The notes below the pieces were generated by a model that worked only from the letters and a program-made list of their open reading frames with translations, was not told the DNA's origin and searched no databases. Of a stretch of DNA of 47,347 nt, positions 12,268 through 27,070 are shown in pieces (positions within the stretch are counted from its first letter, which is position 1; each line of letters starts with the position of its first letter). Both the position numbers and the translations under genes were made by a program. The stretch lies in NCBI GenBank assembly GCA_947473805.1, contig CANJGB010000028.1, positions 1 to 47,347 on the forward strand. Reading direction: 5' to 3'. Origin of the DNA: Alphaproteobacteria bacterium. Lineage in GTDB: Bacteria > Pseudomonadota > Alphaproteobacteria > Ferrovibrionales > Ferrovibrionaceae.

Positions 12268-12357
12268 CGGCTTATTTAGGCTTATTCCGCTCTGTTTCGG
12301 CTTGTCCGGGCTTATTCAGGCTTATTTCAGCTTATTTAGGCTTGTTCTGGCTCGTCC
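12268..12357. repeat. Nine tandem 10-bp repeats, consensus near AGGCTTATTT
   Basis: The run splits exactly into nine 10-mers: CGGCTTATTT, AGGCTTATTC, CGCTCTGTTT, CGGCTTGTCC, GGGCTTATTC, AGGCTTATTT, CAGCTTATTT, AGGCTTGTTC, TGGCTCGTCC. T-rich tracts recur once per helical turn, so they lie on one face of the DNA and could bend it or form an array of binding sites. The run lies just upstream of the RsmB-like gene and about 120 bp from the IS1595 insertion point. Confidence 0.85.
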
Positions 12358-12453
12358 TGAGGGGCCTATCCAGCAGAAAGCATATATTTATCAGATACAT
12401 AACCTAAAACCCGCAGCGGTCACCGGTGTCACGGCACCCGTTGCCGCGCGTAT

Positions 12454-12467
12454 ACCTTATATAAGGT
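12454..12467. promoter_or_regulatory. 14-bp perfect palindrome, possible operator
   Basis: ACCTTATATAAGGT is a perfect dyad in the AT-rich segment between the tandem repeats and the transposon. It could be an operator or a TATA-containing promoter element; nothing else supports a function. Confidence 0.3.
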
Positions 12468-12476
12468 GTCAGGCGG

Positions 12477-12506
12477 AAGATTAACGCGATTGTATACTTG
12501 ACATAC
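12477..12506 (+). repeat. IS1595 left end: 8-bp target duplication plus 22-bp inverted repeat
   Basis: Target duplication AAGATTAA at 12477-12484, then a 22-bp terminal inverted repeat at 12485-12506. The repeat matches the reverse complement of 15434-15455 at all 22 positions. Confidence 0.95.
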
Positions 12507-12517
12507 TGGAGGAATAG

Positions 12518-12721
12518 ATGGATAGGTTAGGAGGACAGGCCGGCGTAGTGATTACGAAGAAGATGGCGGAGGCGGGTGCTGCGGTTCTTGAGGATTGGAG
12601 CGGGAAACTCGATTGGGAGTCTCTGGCTGCCGATGTTTATAGGACCATGGCTCAAGCATGTTTTGAACAGCTTCCGGCGGAAGCCCGTGGTTTGGGCCCC
12701 ATATCAGTGCCGCAATCCTAA
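12518..12721 (+). CDS. Transposon cargo: small protein (67 aa)
   Basis: A strong GGAGGA site (12508-12513) stands 4 nt before the ATG, right inside the left end of the element. The N-terminal part (KMAEAGAAVLEDWSGKLDWESLAADVYRTMAQA) reads as an amphipathic helical protein, like small phage-encoded proteins. The last 20 or so residues look less natural and lie opposite the Pro-rich tail of the HEPN-like gene. Function unknown. It may be shortened or fused at its 3' end. Confidence 0.55.
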   Translation: MDRLGGQAGVVITKKMAEAGAAVLEDWSGKLDWESLAADVYRTMAQACFEQLPAEARGLGPISVPQS

Positions 12722-13205
12722 ACATCACCCGCGCACAGTCGTTGGCTGCACCGTCGATATCTTTGATATTCAGTTTCAAAACCTGAATGTCGTCGACTGA
12801 TTTCGATGTGGTCTCGTTTGTCGATGTGACGATTCGTCCGTCGAAGTAGCTGCTTCTGTGAACCAGGAAATCCCGCAGCTTAGTTATCTCTCCCAAATGA
12901 TCTGTGATCGCCTTGAAATCATCCTGCTGCGCAACTGGAAGATTTCTAGTCTTCATCAGCCGTTTGGTCGTATTGATCACATCCGCCAACCGCATGCCGC
13001 CGCTAATCGCGCGACCAGTTTCGTCCCCCGAACCAAGGACGTGGCGAAACATTAAATGCAGGGCGCTTTCAACGCCTGTGTATCTCTGCACGAACCGACC
13101 ATGGTGCGCGTAGTAGGGCGCGTCCTTTAGGGTCAATATCCATCCTGTAAGGTCGGCATCCCTCCCCAAAAGTTTGTTTCCGGTGGGCGTTTCCTCATCA
13201 GCCAT
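12552..13205 (-). CDS. Transposon cargo: HEPN-like protein with an R-x4-H motif
   Basis: 217 residues, mostly predicted helical. Residues 36-165 (GRFVQRYTGVESALHLMFRHV onward) form the core. The motif LRDFLVH at 110-116 has the R-x4-H signature (R111, H116) of HEPN-superfamily RNases, which act as toxins, in abortive infection or as anti-phage effectors; some family members are inactive. The final 35 residues are Pro/Ser-rich and overlap the 67-aa gene on the other strand, so the tail may have been added by a deletion fusion. I recognise no closer family. The RNase assignment rests on the motif and helical pattern only. Confidence 0.6.
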   Translation of the reverse strand: MADEETPTGNKLLGRDADLTGWILTLKDAPYYAHHGRFVQRYTGVESALHLMFRHVLGSGDETGRAISGGMRLADVINTTKRLMKTRNLPVAQQDDFKAITDHLGEITKLRDFLVHRSSYFDGRIVTSTNETTSKSVDDIQVLKLNIKDIDGAANDCARVMFRIAALIWGPNHGLPPEAVQNMLEPWSYKHRQPETPNRVSRSNPQEPQHPPPPSSS

Positions 13206-13224
13206 GACGCGCTATCATCCCCCA

Positions 13225-13377
13225 ATGCCAGCGAAGCCTACCGCACCAGAGAATCCGGATTTCCGCAAGGTCGTGGAAACGATGCTACGGACGCCGCCGA
13301 AGCATCATGCCGAGATGAAGAAGGGGGCGAACCGGCCGTCAAAACCTAAGGCATCCTTGGGTCGGCCCGGTAAGTGA
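13225..13377 (+). CDS. Transposon cargo: small basic protein (50 aa)
   Basis: MPAKPTAPENPDFRKVVETMLRTPPKHHAEMKKG, then a Lys/Pro-rich tail. This is a short helical segment with a basic end, of a kind often seen beside toxin-like or phage genes. An earlier in-frame ATG at 13204 would share its CATG with the start of the divergent HEPN-like gene. Immediately upstream of, and probably co-transcribed with, the 76-aa membrane protein. Divergent placement next to the HEPN gene makes it a candidate antidote or regulator, which is speculative. Confidence 0.5.
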   Translation: MPAKPTAPENPDFRKVVETMLRTPPKHHAEMKKGANRPSKPKASLGRPGK

Positions 13378-13378
13378 C

Positions 13379-13609
13379 ATGCCGGACGGCAATCAAATCC
13401 TTAAATCTGCGGCGCTAATTGCAGCCGCCATCGTGGTTGGTTTTGTGGCACACGCGCTTATCTCTGCGCAGCCGTGGGAGATGCACACGACCGTTCACCA
13501 ATCCGGCGGAAATGCGTGGCGAATTAACAAATCATCCGGCCAAATGGAATTTTGTTTTGTGGACAAAGCGGGGGAATGCATGCCCATGCCCCCGCCGGCC
13601 GCTCGTTAG
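13379..13609 (+). CDS. Transposon cargo: single-pass membrane protein (76 aa)
   Basis: One transmembrane helix at residues about 10-29 (SAALIAAAIVVGFVAHALIS), then a short polar domain with two Cys residues (EFCFVDKAGECMPM) that could form a disulfide outside the membrane. The ATG comes 1 nt after the stop of the 50-aa gene. Function unknown. Confidence 0.6.
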   Translation: MPDGNQILKSAALIAAAIVVGFVAHALISAQPWEMHTTVHQSGGNAWRINKSSGQMEFCFVDKAGECMPMPPPAAR

Positions 13610-13794
13610 CTGACCATCAGTTTGCTCAACCGGCCGAGCAACATCCGGATATAGCCGATGTCCATTTCGGCGTGTTTCCGCTCCAGCCATGATGCGGATT
13701 CATCGGCGGCGATGGCCTCGCATTGGGCAATCAGTCTCTCGCCCTTGGCAAAGATTGCCAGAGCCCTGTCACGTTCGTAATTTGGGGTTTCCAT
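13606..13794 (-). CDS. Transposon cargo: small helical protein (62 aa)
   Basis: METPNYERDRALAIFAKGERLIAQCEAIAADESASWLERKHAEMDI and a LLGRLSKL end: charged amphipathic helices typical of a small coiled-coil or helix-bundle protein. It converges with the membrane-protein gene, the two stops overlapping at 13606-13609. Start at the ATG 13794; an ATG 18 nt upstream is also in frame. Function unknown. Confidence 0.5.
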   Translation of the reverse strand: METPNYERDRALAIFAKGERLIAQCEAIAADESASWLERKHAEMDIGYIRMLLGRLSKLMVS

Positions 13795-13832
13795 TGGCGC
13801 CCTTCCCGTCACCGCGGGTTGGGCGTATCTTA

Positions 13833-13866
13833 GAAAAGCGAAGGGCGCGGTGCCAGCCGCGCCCTT
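13833..13866 (-). terminator. Terminator hairpin in the cargo
   Basis: Minus strand: AAGGGCGCGG, loop, CCGCGCCCTT (13841-13866), followed by CGCTTTT. It lies downstream of the 78-aa gene and upstream of the 62-aa gene. Confidence 0.55.
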
Positions 13867-13985
13867 GATCGTACCGCCTCGTAACGGCCGATGCTCTTGG
13901 ACCTATCTAAGAGCAAACGGAGCCGTTGTCATGGCATTCCTGCGAATGAGACAAACTCCCGAGGTGCTGGAGGCGCTGGCGGTAT

Positions 13986-14222
13986 TTAACGAGGGACGCG
14001 AACCACCCCCAGGTATCGATAGACGGGAGTTTCATCTTCATCATGTGCGAGTTCTTCGAGCAGCGATGATTCAAGCGGAATCGGAGGCTCGCGTGGGTCG
14101 AAAACCGCTTCCAGACTTTCTGCAAGCCACGGCCGGCCATCGCCCCAAATGACAAAGCCGAAATCTGCCTCCAGCCATGGCGGCGTGTTGGCAAAGAATA
14201 CGCGGCCCGATTTTTGATTCAT
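13986..14222 (-). CDS. Transposon cargo: acidic hypothetical protein (78 aa)
   Basis: MNQKSGRVFFANTPPWLEADFGFVIWGDGRPWLAESLEAVFDPREPP and an EELAHDEDETPVYRYLG end. An AAGGAG site lies 7 nt before the chosen ATG (14220-14222), which decides against the longer frame. The sequence looks like a genuine folded beta-rich protein. No family recognised. An open frame on the opposite strand (13850-14152) is considered a shadow. Confidence 0.6.
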   Translation of the reverse strand: MNQKSGRVFFANTPPWLEADFGFVIWGDGRPWLAESLEAVFDPREPPIPLESSLLEELAHDEDETPVYRYLGVVRVPR

Positions 14223-14267
14223 GGCTTTGCTCCTTGGTTCCTCGACAGTTCCAAGGTTAGCGAGGAA

Positions 14268-14296
14268 GGGGCCGGGAGTCATTCCGGCCCCTTTTT
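14268..14296 (+). terminator. Rho-independent terminator in the cargo
   Basis: An 8-bp GGGGCCGG/CCGGCCCC stem (14268-14275 with 14284-14291) followed by TTTTT on the plus strand. It would stop plus-strand transcription from the cargo before it opposes the transposase gene; on the minus strand the T run is weak. Confidence 0.65.
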
Positions 14297-14449
14297 CTCA
14301 GGCGCGTCGAAATCGAGCAACAATTGCGGTCCTGACTCCAGCGCGGGCGTGGCCAACGCCAGCCTCTCCAGCCACCCCCTGATGATCGCGCGGACCTGTT
14401 TACGGGTCAGGCGTGGATTTTTAGGCGAGCCGGATAGGCCGCCGATAGG
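14279..14449 (-). other. Coding-like frame overlapping the transposase 3' end, no canonical start
   Basis: The frame +1 relative to the transposase reads on past its stop as SPKNPRLTRKQVRAIIRGW, LERLALATPALESG and PQLLLDFDAPEKKGPE, ending at TGA in the terminator loop. The composition is like a real helical protein, but there is no ATG, GTG or TTG after the upstream stop. It could be a +1-frameshift extension of the transposase, a small protein with an unusual start, or the remnant of a gene whose 5' part was lost. Confidence 0.3.
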
Positions 14450-15389
14450 TCAGGCGCTTCCCAGTGATGCCCTTCACAGCGAGGTAGTGACGCTCAACAT
14501 CTTCAACGCCGAGCCTTGAGCGGTTGGAATAGCGAAAGTCAAATTCGTTCAAATAACGCTGCAAATGTTGTTCCGAACAATGCTGATAGACGCCTTTCAT
14601 GCCGCGCTTGAAGATCGAAAAGTAACCCTCAACCGTGTTGGTATGAATGCCGCCGGTCTTGGCGTACTCGCCCTTGGCATGTTGCGTCGTGCCGTGGCTG
14701 GCGAACGTCTTGCCCAGCGTGCGGTAATGATTCGCCTCATCGGTCATCAGCGCCGACTTGCGATCCACGTTCGCCAGCAGGATTTCGCCCACCTGCTTCG
14801 CAGTCACGTTATCGACTTTGACGGAACGGACGCGACCGCCACGCTCCACTAGCGAGACAATCTTGCGCTTGTCGCCATAGCCGCGCTTGCGCTGCGGCTT
14901 TCCTTCGGCGTCCGTCGTCAGCCCGGATGGGCCGATATAGGTCTCATCTGCCTCGACCACCTGACCGGGACCACCCATGGTTCCCGGATTCGCACCCTTC
15001 ATCCCCTCGCGGATGCGATGGCACATGAACCACGCCGACTTGTACGTAATCCCGAGCATGCGATGGATTTGGTGCGCCGAGACGCCCTTCTTGCCCGAAG
15101 TCAGCAGGTGCGTGGCCAGCAGCCATTTGTGCAGCGGAATGTGGCTGCGCTCGTAGACGGTGCCCATGGTCACGCTGTAGTGCGCCTGACAGGCATTGCA
15201 CTTGTGCAGTCCCGGGCGCGTCGTCTTGCCTTCCATGCGCGTTTGGCCCTCCGTAGAGCCGCATTTCGGGCAGTACGGGCAGTACGGGCAGTACGGGCAG
15301 TACGGGCCAGTCGGCCAGCGCACCTGCTCTAGGTACTCGCGGGCCTTCGTTTCATCGGTGAAAATCGGGTTCGTCAGATCGGCGGACAT
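14421..15389 (-). CDS. IS1595-family transposase
   Basis: 322 residues. An N-terminal zinc ribbon (PYC repeated, then PKCGS ... HKCNACQ) is followed by a helical DNA-binding region and the DDE-type catalytic core: VVEADETYIG, SALMTDEANHY and HTNTVEGYFS supply the acidic residues. The domain order and the GVKGITGKRLTYRR-like end are typical of IS1595. Unusually, the ribbon contains four tandem PYC tripeptides encoded by a 9-bp repeat. The start ATG has GGAG upstream and lies about 18 nt downstream of a promoter whose -35 box is in the terminal repeat. Confidence 0.93.
   Translation of the reverse strand: MSADLTNPIFTDETKAREYLEQVRWPTGPYCPYCPYCPYCPKCGSTEGQTRMEGKTTRPGLHKCNACQAHYSVTMGTVYERSHIPLHKWLLATHLLTSGKKGVSAHQIHRMLGITYKSAWFMCHRIREGMKGANPGTMGGPGQVVEADETYIGPSGLTTDAEGKPQRKRGYGDKRKIVSLVERGGRVRSVKVDNVTAKQVGEILLANVDRKSALMTDEANHYRTLGKTFASHGTTQHAKGEYAKTGGIHTNTVEGYFSIFKRGMKGVYQHCSEQHLQRYLNEFDFRYSNRSRLGVEDVERHYLAVKGITGKRLTYRRPIRLA
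15271..15306. repeat. Four perfect 9-bp repeats in the transposase zinc-ribbon coding region
   Basis: CAGTACGGG repeated four times, encoding PYC x4 on the minus strand, with a degenerate fifth unit (CATTTCGGG, PKC) beside it. A slippage-prone array that multiplies the CP-C metal-ligand motif. Confidence 0.9.
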
Positions 15390-23916: not shown

Positions 23917-24441
23917 ATGACCGCCGCCCCCTCCGCACCCGCGCCCGCGTGGCGCCCGATGCAGCAAGCCGACCTGCAGGACGTGAGCGCCATCGCAGCC
24001 CGCGTGCACCCGGACTACCCCGAAGACGACGCCATTTTCGCGGAGCGCCTGCGCCTCTATCCGGCGGGGTGCCGCGTGCTGGCGGCGGGGGCGAAGCTGT
24101 ACGGCTATGTGCTGAGCCACCCGTGGCGCGCGGGCCAGGTGCCGAAGCTCAACACGCTGCTCGGTGACCTGCCGGCGGAACCGGACACGTATTACATCCA
24201 CGACATCGCGTTGCTGCCGGAGGTGCGGGGGTTGGGGTGTGCGGGGGTTGTGGTTGCGGAACTCGTCGCGCGGGCGAGGGTAGAAAAGCTGAATTCCATG
24301 TCGCTAGTGGCGGTCAATTGTTCGACCGAATTCTGGCAACGACATGGTTTCGGTATAGCCGCGGCGCAAACGCCGGCACATGCGGTGCAACTAAAAAGCT
24401 ATGACGGTCACACAACCCTGATGACGAGGCAAACAAGGTAA
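23917..24441 (+). CDS. GNAT-family N-acetyltransferase
   Basis: 174 residues of the GCN5-related fold: WRPMQQADLQDVSAIAARVHPDYPEDDAIFAERLRLYPAGC at the N-terminus, the YYIHDIALLPEVRGLGCAGVVVAELVARA acetyl-CoA-binding strand-loop-helix with an R-G-L-G-C-A-G variant of the Q/RxxGxG/A motif, and STEFWQRHGFG at the C-terminus. Substrate unknown. The start ATG follows the Pro/Ala tract consistent with an N-terminal tail. Just downstream, base composition drops sharply. Confidence 0.85.
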   Translation: MTAAPSAPAPAWRPMQQADLQDVSAIAARVHPDYPEDDAIFAERLRLYPAGCRVLAAGAKLYGYVLSHPWRAGQVPKLNTLLGDLPAEPDTYYIHDIALLPEVRGLGCAGVVVAELVARARVEKLNSMSLVAVNCSTEFWQRHGFGIAAAQTPAHAVQLKSYDGHTTLMTRQTR

Positions 24442-24631
24442 GACCGGGAGCAGTCTTTCTCGCATAAGCGTTTCAATGCGGAGCTATGGATGCGCCAAAT
24501 GGAGTCGAAAACAAAGTTCATTCAGCATGCTCAACGTAGTGATAATTTCTTGGTCGACATTTAGCATTGAGCGCTGGCTTGGGAACCCGCCGCAAGTCTG
24601 CTAGTTGAACTTACTTCGGTACAATCATCGA

Positions 24632-25555
24632 ATGCGTTTTCCAGTCGACCTGTTGGATTCCGATGCCGCCATGATGCTGAGTAGCATCAAGGGAATGGGA
24701 ACGCCCAAAGCGTGGAAGCGCAGGGCGGAAACGTTCGATTTATGGGTACGTCAAAACTCACTTATGGATTTCTACCTGAGTCACCAGTTCGGTATAGAAC
24801 GAGGGATCATCAGAGCACTTAAGTACAAAGAAGCCACAAACAGAGCACCACGCCCCGCTGGCGATCCCGAGATCTTTTCGGCACTGCAGTTTTGCACTTT
24901 GGCCACGCGGGTGGGCGCCCGCGTTAGCGCCACCGCTAGGCATGAGCTGTGCGGAAAAATCCGAGGTGCGTTGTCTGACAAAAAGGGGCTCGCCGATCTT
25001 GATTTTGAACTTTCAACGATCGCGCACTTAATCAAGGCCGGTTTCGATGTAGAGCTAAATGATCTCGAAGGGTTGCGTCGAGAAGGAAAAAATTTTGATT
25101 TTCTTGCCGCCCGGAACGGCATTTCAATCGCCATAGAATGCAAGTCGTTCAGTTATGATGTCGGGCGGAAAATACACCGACGGCGCTTGTACGATCTTTC
25201 TGGCTTGATATCTAACTCCCTAAGTCGGGCCCTCGACCAAGAGGGGGGAACGTTTGTGAAGGTAACTCTTGCTGACTCACTTCGACCGGGCGATCTCGGC
25301 AAAGTCGCCGGAGAAATATCGGAAACACTTCGAGCGGGCACTGCGCCGCCAGACTGTAGTTTTGTCTCAGGTTGCGAAGCATTTGATGTCGCGGCTTCAC
25401 CAATTGGACCAGATGCGCATCTAGGCGTGTCTCAAGATGAGGTTGAGGAATTTATAAGCCGCCGTTTCGGCTTTTCAACACCACATCTGCTGGTTTCATT
25501 CCGGCCAAATAAGGCGGCAGTGATAGTCGGTGTTCGCAGCCTTAAAGCCCGATGA
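24632..25555 (+). CDS. PD-(D/E)xK-like nuclease, N-terminal part (frameshifted gene)
   Basis: 307 residues from ATG 24632. LDFELSTIAHLIKAGFDVEL, then NFDFLAARNGISIAIECKS, gives the restriction-endonuclease-fold pattern of a helix Glu, an Asp and an E-x-K (D156, E169, K171 by my count). This suggests metal-dependent DNA or RNA cleavage. A TACAAT box ends 6 nt before the ATG, so the mRNA may be leaderless. The gene stands in an AT-richer stretch unlike its neighbours, suggesting transfer. The reading frame ends at TGA 25553-25555, but protein-like sequence continues in another frame. A defence or mobile-element nuclease is a reasonable guess; no specific family recognised. Confidence 0.65.
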   Translation: MRFPVDLLDSDAAMMLSSIKGMGTPKAWKRRAETFDLWVRQNSLMDFYLSHQFGIERGIIRALKYKEATNRAPRPAGDPEIFSALQFCTLATRVGARVSATARHELCGKIRGALSDKKGLADLDFELSTIAHLIKAGFDVELNDLEGLRREGKNFDFLAARNGISIAIECKSFSYDVGRKIHRRRLYDLSGLISNSLSRALDQEGGTFVKVTLADSLRPGDLGKVAGEISETLRAGTAPPDCSFVSGCEAFDVAASPIGPDAHLGVSQDEVEEFISRRFGFSTPHLLVSFRPNKAAVIVGVRSLKAR

Positions 25556-25934
25556 AGTTTTGAAGGGAATGCATCACCAGTTCCGGGAAGCCGCGGACCA
25601 ACTGCCAAAAAATCTACCCGGCTTCGTATTCGGACAGCTTCGCGACCTATCAGCATCCTCGCTGCGCGAAATTGCCGAAGTCCCAGAGCGCGATAAAAAA
25701 GCTACAGGCCTTCAAGCCATGACAAGTTATTTTCTCGATGGTGCTAGCTGTCGCCACATTTTAGGCGCCTCATATGTAGCCCATGGCAAAATAGAAATTC
25801 GTCGAGAGCCCATAGCATCACGCATGCGCCGTAGTGAATCACGGGATGCGAACACGTACACTTTTTGGAATCGGCATCATCCAAATGCGGCCGACCGGAA
25901 CTATCACCCGACCGCCCGAGTGTCGGTGGGATAG
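25530..25934 (+). pseudogene. C-terminal continuation of the nuclease-like gene in the +1 frame
   Basis: Overlaps the end of the previous frame and reads LKPDEVLKGMHHQFREAADQLPKNLPGFVFGQLRDLSASSLREIAEVPERDKK to a stop at 25932-25934. The content looks like the natural continuation of the nuclease protein (about 120 more residues). There is no convincing ribosome site. A single-base indel around 25535-25552, or +1 frameshifting near CGA TGA, would restore one protein of about 430 residues. Confidence 0.55.
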
Positions 25935-25973
25935 GGATCTTTAGGAAATCGCAGGGCCGATTCTGCAAAATTC

Positions 25974-26045
25974 TACCGTCTTGCGGAATTGAACCGCGGA
26001 TCCACCGACTACGAATCAGTTTCTCTAACCCTGAACTAAGACGGC
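25974..26045 (-). tRNA. Degenerate tRNA-Thr(CGU)-like gene
   Basis: 72 nt, the same length as the intact tRNA-Thr body 1 kb away. It folds into a cloverleaf with anticodon loop TTCGTAG (anticodon CGU) and a good anticodon stem. Flaws: G10-A25 and C49-A65 mismatches and a G1-U72 end pair, and the 3' CCA is not encoded (GAA follows). It marks the edge of the AT-rich insert carrying the nuclease gene. It could be a decayed attachment-site copy, a pseudo-tRNA or a divergent working tRNA. Confidence 0.6.
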
Positions 26046-26108: not shown

Positions 26109-26924
26109 TCAGCCGTTCTCTATCGCGCTGATCACCCGCTCGAATGCCGCGCGCTTCTCGTCGCTTTGCTCTCTCTCCACCGGGTCCGCGGCGACGCCGG
26201 CGAAAATGTCTTCGCCGGCCAGCCAGCGCGCCTCGGAATCGGGTGTTTCGAGGGCCACCAGCAGGCCGTGGTTCAGTTCGATCGAGCGGTCGTCCAGGCC
26301 GCGGCTGCGCAACGCCGCCCGCATGGCGAGGTCAAAGCTGCCGCGCAGTTGCACGTTGACCGTCGGCACCGGGATATCGCTGCGCTGCCCGGCCCAGGAC
26401 CGTTCGCACGCCGCGAGCGAGAGCGAGGCGAAGGCGCGGCAGGTGTTCGGCCGCGCGTCGTAGGCCTCGCACCTGTTGTCCTTCAGCACGGCGCAGGGGT
26501 GGTGCGCCGTCAGCCGCGCGTCGCCGGCGAGGTCGCGCGTCAGGGCGTCGGCCGCGCGCAGGCGCGCCAGCAAAGTGGCGTCGTCGTGCTGCGCGCGCAG
26601 GACGCGGAGCAGATTGAATATCTCGGGCGCTGTGGCGCTGACGAAGGTGTGGCAGCAATAGCTGCAGCCGGCGCGGCAGGCGAGTTCGCCCTGACCCTGC
26701 GGCGTGTGCCGCTGGACCGACTGGCTGTAGGCCTGGGTCGCGAATTTCGCCGCGTCACTGGCGCGGGACGGCGCGCCGCCGTCGAGCAGGCCGAGCAGGG
26801 CTTTTTTCAGCGTGACCAGGTGGGCGATGCCGCCGTCGGGATCGATACCCTGAGTGGACAGGCGCCGCAGGCGGTCGCGGGTTTCGCGTTCGAGCTGGCG
26901 CCGTTGCTTCCGATCCTCAACCAT
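26109..26924 (-). CDS. YkgJ-family cysteine-cluster protein
   Basis: 271 residues. The zinc/iron-chelating cysteine cluster is clear: CRAGCSYCCHTFVSATAPE (about 82-100), then HHPCAVLKDNRCEAYDARPNTCRAF. The family binds Zn or Fe; its biochemical role is not settled. The N-terminal 80 residues are charged helices. It lies between the two tRNA-Thr sequences in normal high-GC DNA. Confidence 0.85.
   Translation of the reverse strand: MVEDRKQRRQLERETRDRLRRLSTQGIDPDGGIAHLVTLKKALLGLLDGGAPSRASDAAKFATQAYSQSVQRHTPQGQGELACRAGCSYCCHTFVSATAPEIFNLLRVLRAQHDDATLLARLRAADALTRDLAGDARLTAHHPCAVLKDNRCEAYDARPNTCRAFASLSLAACERSWAGQRSDIPVPTVNVQLRGSFDLAMRAALRSRGLDDRSIELNHGLLVALETPDSEARWLAGEDIFAGVAADPVEREQSDEKRAAFERVISAIENG

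Positions 26925-26995: not shown

Positions 26996-27070
<75 letters not shown>

Follow-up and report, generated by a model that had tools for sequence, protein, structure and literature searches.

A low-GC segment at positions 24281-26041 of the window, the whole stretch of 47,347 nucleotides analysed here, is probably what is left of a horizontal acquisition, in which a nuclease gene of a mobile family is the only cargo that can be recognised. As part of the same reading, which we hold as a whole with moderate confidence, this gene is the relic of a defence nuclease that moved as a single gene and has since lost its activity. The defence role is suggested by the places and neighbours of its relatives, since these are sparse, mobile and found beside genes of defence type. 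The features are the following:

23917-24441, forward strand: GNAT acetyltransferase gene, mosaic (Pfam Acetyltransf_1; GC3 shift)
24281-26041, no strand: low-GC, presumably foreign segment (maximum-likelihood segmentation, log-likelihood ratio 85)
24632-25555, forward strand: nuclease gene, first part, with the predicted helical N-terminal region and the catalytic residues (ORF, early stop after the frameshift)
25530-25934, forward strand: nuclease gene, second part in another frame, corresponding to the C-terminal half of the family (profile match at 25542-25901)
25974-26045, reverse strand: degenerate copy of tRNA-Thr(CGT) (ARAGORN; alignment)
26109-26924, reverse strand: gene of a CxxCxxCC (YkgJ-type) zinc/iron-binding protein, between the two tRNA copies (Pfam PF03692)
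26996-27070, reverse strand: intact tRNA-Thr(CGT) (ARAGORN; 3′ end exact)

The segment was delimited by its GC content (0.52 versus 0.66), and 200 block shuffles of the flanking DNA gave log-likelihood ratios no higher than 19.2. Codon use shifts with it, GC3 being 0.50 in the nuclease ORF and 0.88-0.92 in four neighbouring genes. The sharp change in base composition and codon use described in the earlier note is thus confirmed, and both measures support the foreign origin that it proposed. The change had been placed after the GNAT gene: the low-GC island is present, but its left edge falls within GNAT, at about codon 121. Indeed, the GC3 of this gene is 0.88 over codons 1-120 and 0.56 over codons 121-174 (from position 24277; Fisher p = 5 × 10−6), while that of three orthologues from the same bacterial family stays at 0.83-0.89 right to the gene end. 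These last 54 codons are still in frame and the protein can be aligned to its orthologues to the end. Since GC3 falls at codon 121 in the window gene and not in its orthologues, and the alignment is kept, foreign DNA starts inside GNAT, a mosaic whose 3′ part is foreign. The window therefore illustrates both the death of a mobile cargo gene and the replacement of the end of a neighbouring host gene by foreign DNA. The GNAT protein is present in 39 of 385 genomes of the class; around it, synteny was limited to GNAT alone, matched in three genomes of the bacterial family.

The segment contains a single substantial gene, the frame-broken nuclease, together with the degenerate tRNA-Thr(CGT), and no defence partner gene. 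The frame at 24632-25555 is cut short near 25.54 kb, where a frameshift moves the coding sequence into another frame that extends as far as 25934. Judged from sequence, the two frames are the halves of one protein of about 430 residues, encoded by one broken gene, because the second part matches the family profile by itself (E = 1.8 × 10−17) and because full-length relatives, of 408-457 residues, align over both halves. The broken full-length nuclease that had been proposed is thus recovered by joining the frames. A programmed frameshift was considered and dropped, as other, unbroken members of the alignment read through this point; the window sequence comes from one draft genome, and the frameshift could be biological or a sequencing or assembly error. 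Because it takes away the C-terminal half, the window copy is most likely inactive, as far as the structure models can indicate.

The E...D...ExK pattern noticed earlier corresponds to E126 (codon 25007-25009), D156 (25097-25099), E169 (25136-25138) and K171 (25142-25144), and these residues, together with C170, are invariant in all 20 aligned members. Seven family sequences were compared with the models of Pfam, NCBIfam, PADLOC and PHROGs, and none gave a hit below E 0.03. The suggestion of an unnamed nuclease family therefore holds across these four curated libraries, with nuclease activity predicted from sequence and models: the family appears to be a new one of a known enzyme kind, the PD-(D/E)xK nucleases. 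It has the invariant residues of this superfamily, and the fold predicted for a full-length relative (G054) aligns with several of its nucleases at Z of about 5-8. It differs in lacking a significant sequence relation in Pfam and PDB searches, in its length of about 430 residues, in its helical N-terminal region and in a C-terminal half that seems to be part of the fold.

The AlphaFold model of this relative (pLDDT 83, pTM 0.82) has an order of secondary structures around the catalytic residues that is compatible with the alpha-beta-beta-beta-alpha-beta core. In Foldseek searches against the PDB, neither this model nor that of the truncated window protein had a match at E ≤ 0.001; the best matches of the full-length model, all above this value, were archaeal Hjc resolvases. 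Predicted structures of viral proteins yielded nothing at E 0.001. When realigned, the full-length model gave Z scores of about 5-8 with AF1548, Hjc, Can1/Can2/Cdn1, FokI, HindIII, SPARDA and Hna, but rows of acetyl-CoA carboxylase scored equally high, and structural alignment rows with Z below 8 can reflect a common arrangement. The models thus support a predicted PD-(D/E)xK-like fold, short of proof. In the model of the truncated window chain (pLDDT 90.6), nearly all nuclease matches are gone and only the Hjc structure 4tkd is left, with Z 2.1 over 48 residues. Since this chain loses nearly all of its fold matches, the second half seems to be needed to complete the nuclease fold. Sequence kinship to solved structures was rejected, phmmer with the window protein having given Hjc only, at E 0.13-0.18; designed ankyrin proteins, matched by the family profile at E 0.06 and up, were judged to be chance hits.

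Intact members would be metal-dependent enzymes in which a helical N-terminal region precedes the E...D...ExK active site, while the C-terminal half seems to complete the fold and may sense the target. As putative DNA-cutting defence proteins, they would cleave incoming phage or plasmid DNA, or cellular DNA upon activation.

As the earlier note had it, the end of the nuclease gene abuts a tRNA-Thr-like sequence. ARAGORN identified it as a tRNA-Thr(CGT) without an encoded CCA, whose 3′ end points toward the nuclease stop codon, 39 nt away. It shares with the intact tRNA-Thr(CGT), located 1 kb further, a block of 94 nt at 82% identity that reaches into the upstream flank. The low-GC segment takes in the degenerate copy itself, its right edge lying at 26041, and the YkgJ-type gene beyond has host-like composition (GC3 0.88). 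The layout of a foreign fragment at a tRNA site, put forward in the earlier note, is supported, and it recurs in a relative's genome (G164, contig C11; L063:115-10590). There, a 10.4-kb element occupies a tRNA-Thr(GGT) and carries the nuclease as its first gene inside, directed toward the tRNA as in the window. An exact copy of the tRNA 3′ end marks the far end, the two 24-nt repeats being separated by 10.4 kb; a tyrosine integrase lies beside the far repeat and a D5/DUF5906 primase lies in between. This element is satellite-like. Elements of this kind at tRNA genes include the P4-like type. The nuclease just inside the attachment site, the integrase and the primase are shared with tRNA-gene integrative elements and phage satellites as portrayed in PMC9122126; the window nuclease, with its 3′ end facing the tRNA, resembles that of the G164 element. 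In contrast, the window segment has neither an integrase nor a second attachment repeat, and its far edge lies in GNAT.

The segment may have arrived by an element like that of G164. The further claim that an integrase had been lost here is not sustained, and neither is arrival of the window copy by an integrase: no integrase-like ORF is found in the ORF list within 24281-26041, and the 3′-end repeat of the tRNA is absent at the GNAT end, a search of the window with up to 3 mismatches having matched nothing beyond the two tRNA copies. Both edges of the segment fit homologous recombination equally well. A donor ordered GNAT-nuclease-tRNA-Thr could have brought the segment without any integrase being involved at this site, which we regard as possible, if not quite probable. 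Indeed, each edge falls within a gene expected in donor and host alike: the left one at about codon 121 of GNAT, with frame and alignment kept, and the right one in the tRNA-Thr copy, whose 3′ end is not repeated at the far end. However, the donor order was not found, none of 28 listed GNAT loci (flanks up to 1.5 kb) having a tRNA-Thr nearby, and G164 shows the same layout at tRNA-Thr as a true element. The window's own genome also argues for integrase use of this tRNA. On its contig C11 (90940-90994; L095:12941-12995) lies an orphan 3′ half of tRNA-Thr(CGT), at which ARAGORN detected no whole tRNA. Beyond it, DNA of GC 0.56-0.59 contains two ORFs, one of 212 aa directed toward the tRNA end and one of 411 aa that is Fic-like by eye. 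This half is probably the attachment remnant of another element, and since it lacks a whole tRNA and borders lower-GC DNA, tRNA-Thr(CGT) probably served as an attachment site in this genome.

The distribution of the family is that of a sparse accessory gene. It was matched in 2 of 61 relatives' genomes, including the window's own, and, with weak partial matches included, in 7 of 385 genomes of the class and 8 of 398 of the phylum. No orthologue of host composition at the same position, the finding that would count against an island, was present in the 17 other Ferrovibrionaceae genomes, which had no family match at all; this is a weak check, as the searched genomes contain no other member of the window's own genus. 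The weak partial matches (G187, G271, G550, G688 and the second one in G544) enter these tallies and lie outside the 23 loci analysed below; the first match in G544 is the same gene as L021, identical in sequence as printed.

The family spans Alpha-, Beta- and Gammaproteobacteria, in plasmids, prophages and small elements. Plasmid-borne relatives occur in Paraburkholderia, Pseudomonas, Cupriavidus, Rhizobium, Caballeronia and Komagataeibacter, and further plasmid matches exist beyond the loci taken into the analysis. Three phage contigs carry a relative; in one of them it has a phage regulator on one side and a tail gene on the other, and in another it lies upstream of terminase and portal genes. 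Others (G312, G245 and G375) are lone low-GC inserts between core genes. The GC content of the gene is below that of its flanks in 20 of the 23 loci (sign test, p = 5 × 10−4). Broken copies are found in five of them (the window, G245, R. ruizarguesonis, Caballeronia and Porphyrobacter), a frequency expected for a costly accessory gene. This mobile nuclease family, nameless in the four curated libraries, thus offers intact alleles for tests.

Genes of defence type beside the relatives include a PLD_Helicase (PADLOC) and SIR2-like, CHAT, HNH and ABC-three-component genes. Instead, the protein could serve mobile elements in a selfish or housekeeping role, for example as an Hjc-like replication or recombination nuclease, with no part in defence. 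Holliday-junction resolvases are its closest solved matches in both sequence and fold, and phages bear copies of it. We nevertheless consider this unlikely: lone chromosomal copies exist (the three inserts named above) and relatives adjoin unrelated types of element, one clade sits inside a cluster of nucleotide-metabolism genes, and no replication or recombination partner is constant over the 23 loci.

The clade in question, a sister clade with support of 100/100, is linked with UDG, MazG and MazG_C, thymidylate synthase, dCTP deaminase and metallophosphoesterase genes, and also with AbiEii, papain-like and ImmA/IrrE-chagasin proteins. At least two cluster genes lie beside five of its six members in the tree, and the sixth retains a remnant of one cluster gene; the tree leaves out L044 and the plasmids L011 and L012, which are broken or fragmentary, and includes G245 by its first part only. 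At L040-L045 and L011, the cluster consists of an HTH protein, an ImmA/IrrE protein with a chagasin domain, a papain-like protease, a 258-aa protein, the nuclease, UDG and MazG/MazG_C; thymidylate synthase, dCTP deaminase, metallophosphoesterase or AbiEii are found in some of these loci. The cluster looks like a conflict system, and we matched it to no named one. PMC13092281 describes anti-phage systems that DefensePredictor detected and that contain PD-(D/E)XK domains, and it counts thymidylate synthase, metallophosphatase, UDG, MazG and MazG-C among domains with a predicted or validated role in defence. The family thus shares with these systems the PD-(D/E)XK domain and, in the sister clade, adjoining genes of the listed kinds, which ties this clade to a nucleotide-metabolism gene set of a kind for which recent work predicts or validates a defence role. 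No E. coli genome carried a DNA relative of the phage-borne member examined, a difference from those systems that gives no support for identity with a validated one.

A bolder interpretation, which we find improbable and which draws on the gene cluster of the sister clade, would make the family the DNA-cleaving component of a base-surveillance defence, the single-gene forms being stripped-down versions carried by satellites at tRNA-Thr. If so, the nuclease would destroy DNA containing non-canonical pyrimidines or act once a phage disturbs the nucleotide pool. Under the same reading, the two halves of the protein may jointly form the active site. The window copy belongs to a weakly supported group of the tree, and none of the six other members of that group has the UDG/MazG cluster; the sole cluster-like signal there is a dCTP-deaminase-type match of 25% identity about 6 kb away in G164. 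That the low GC is mere drift of decaying pseudogenes in a native region is very improbable: the nuclease and the tRNA copy are both degenerate, but the shift also covers the intact 3′ end of GNAT, relatives too have a GC content below that of their flanks, and no orthologue was found among the 17 other genomes of the bacterial family.

Two further observations concern neighbouring genes. Downstream of the G054 nuclease and overlapping its stop lies a broken pair of ORFs (L008:2724-3435), which by eye we take to resemble class III (Pycsar-type) nucleotide cyclases; this assignment was not retained, Pfam, PADLOC and PDB searches with the first ORF having given nothing. In the window itself, a second low-GC segment lies at 12272-14648 (log-likelihood ratio 65) and extends into an IS1595-type transposase gene (14421-15389, reverse strand). 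It contains an ORF of 217 aa (12552-13205, reverse strand) without a Pfam match, in which an R-x4-H motif, spotted by eye, may resemble that of HEPN proteins.
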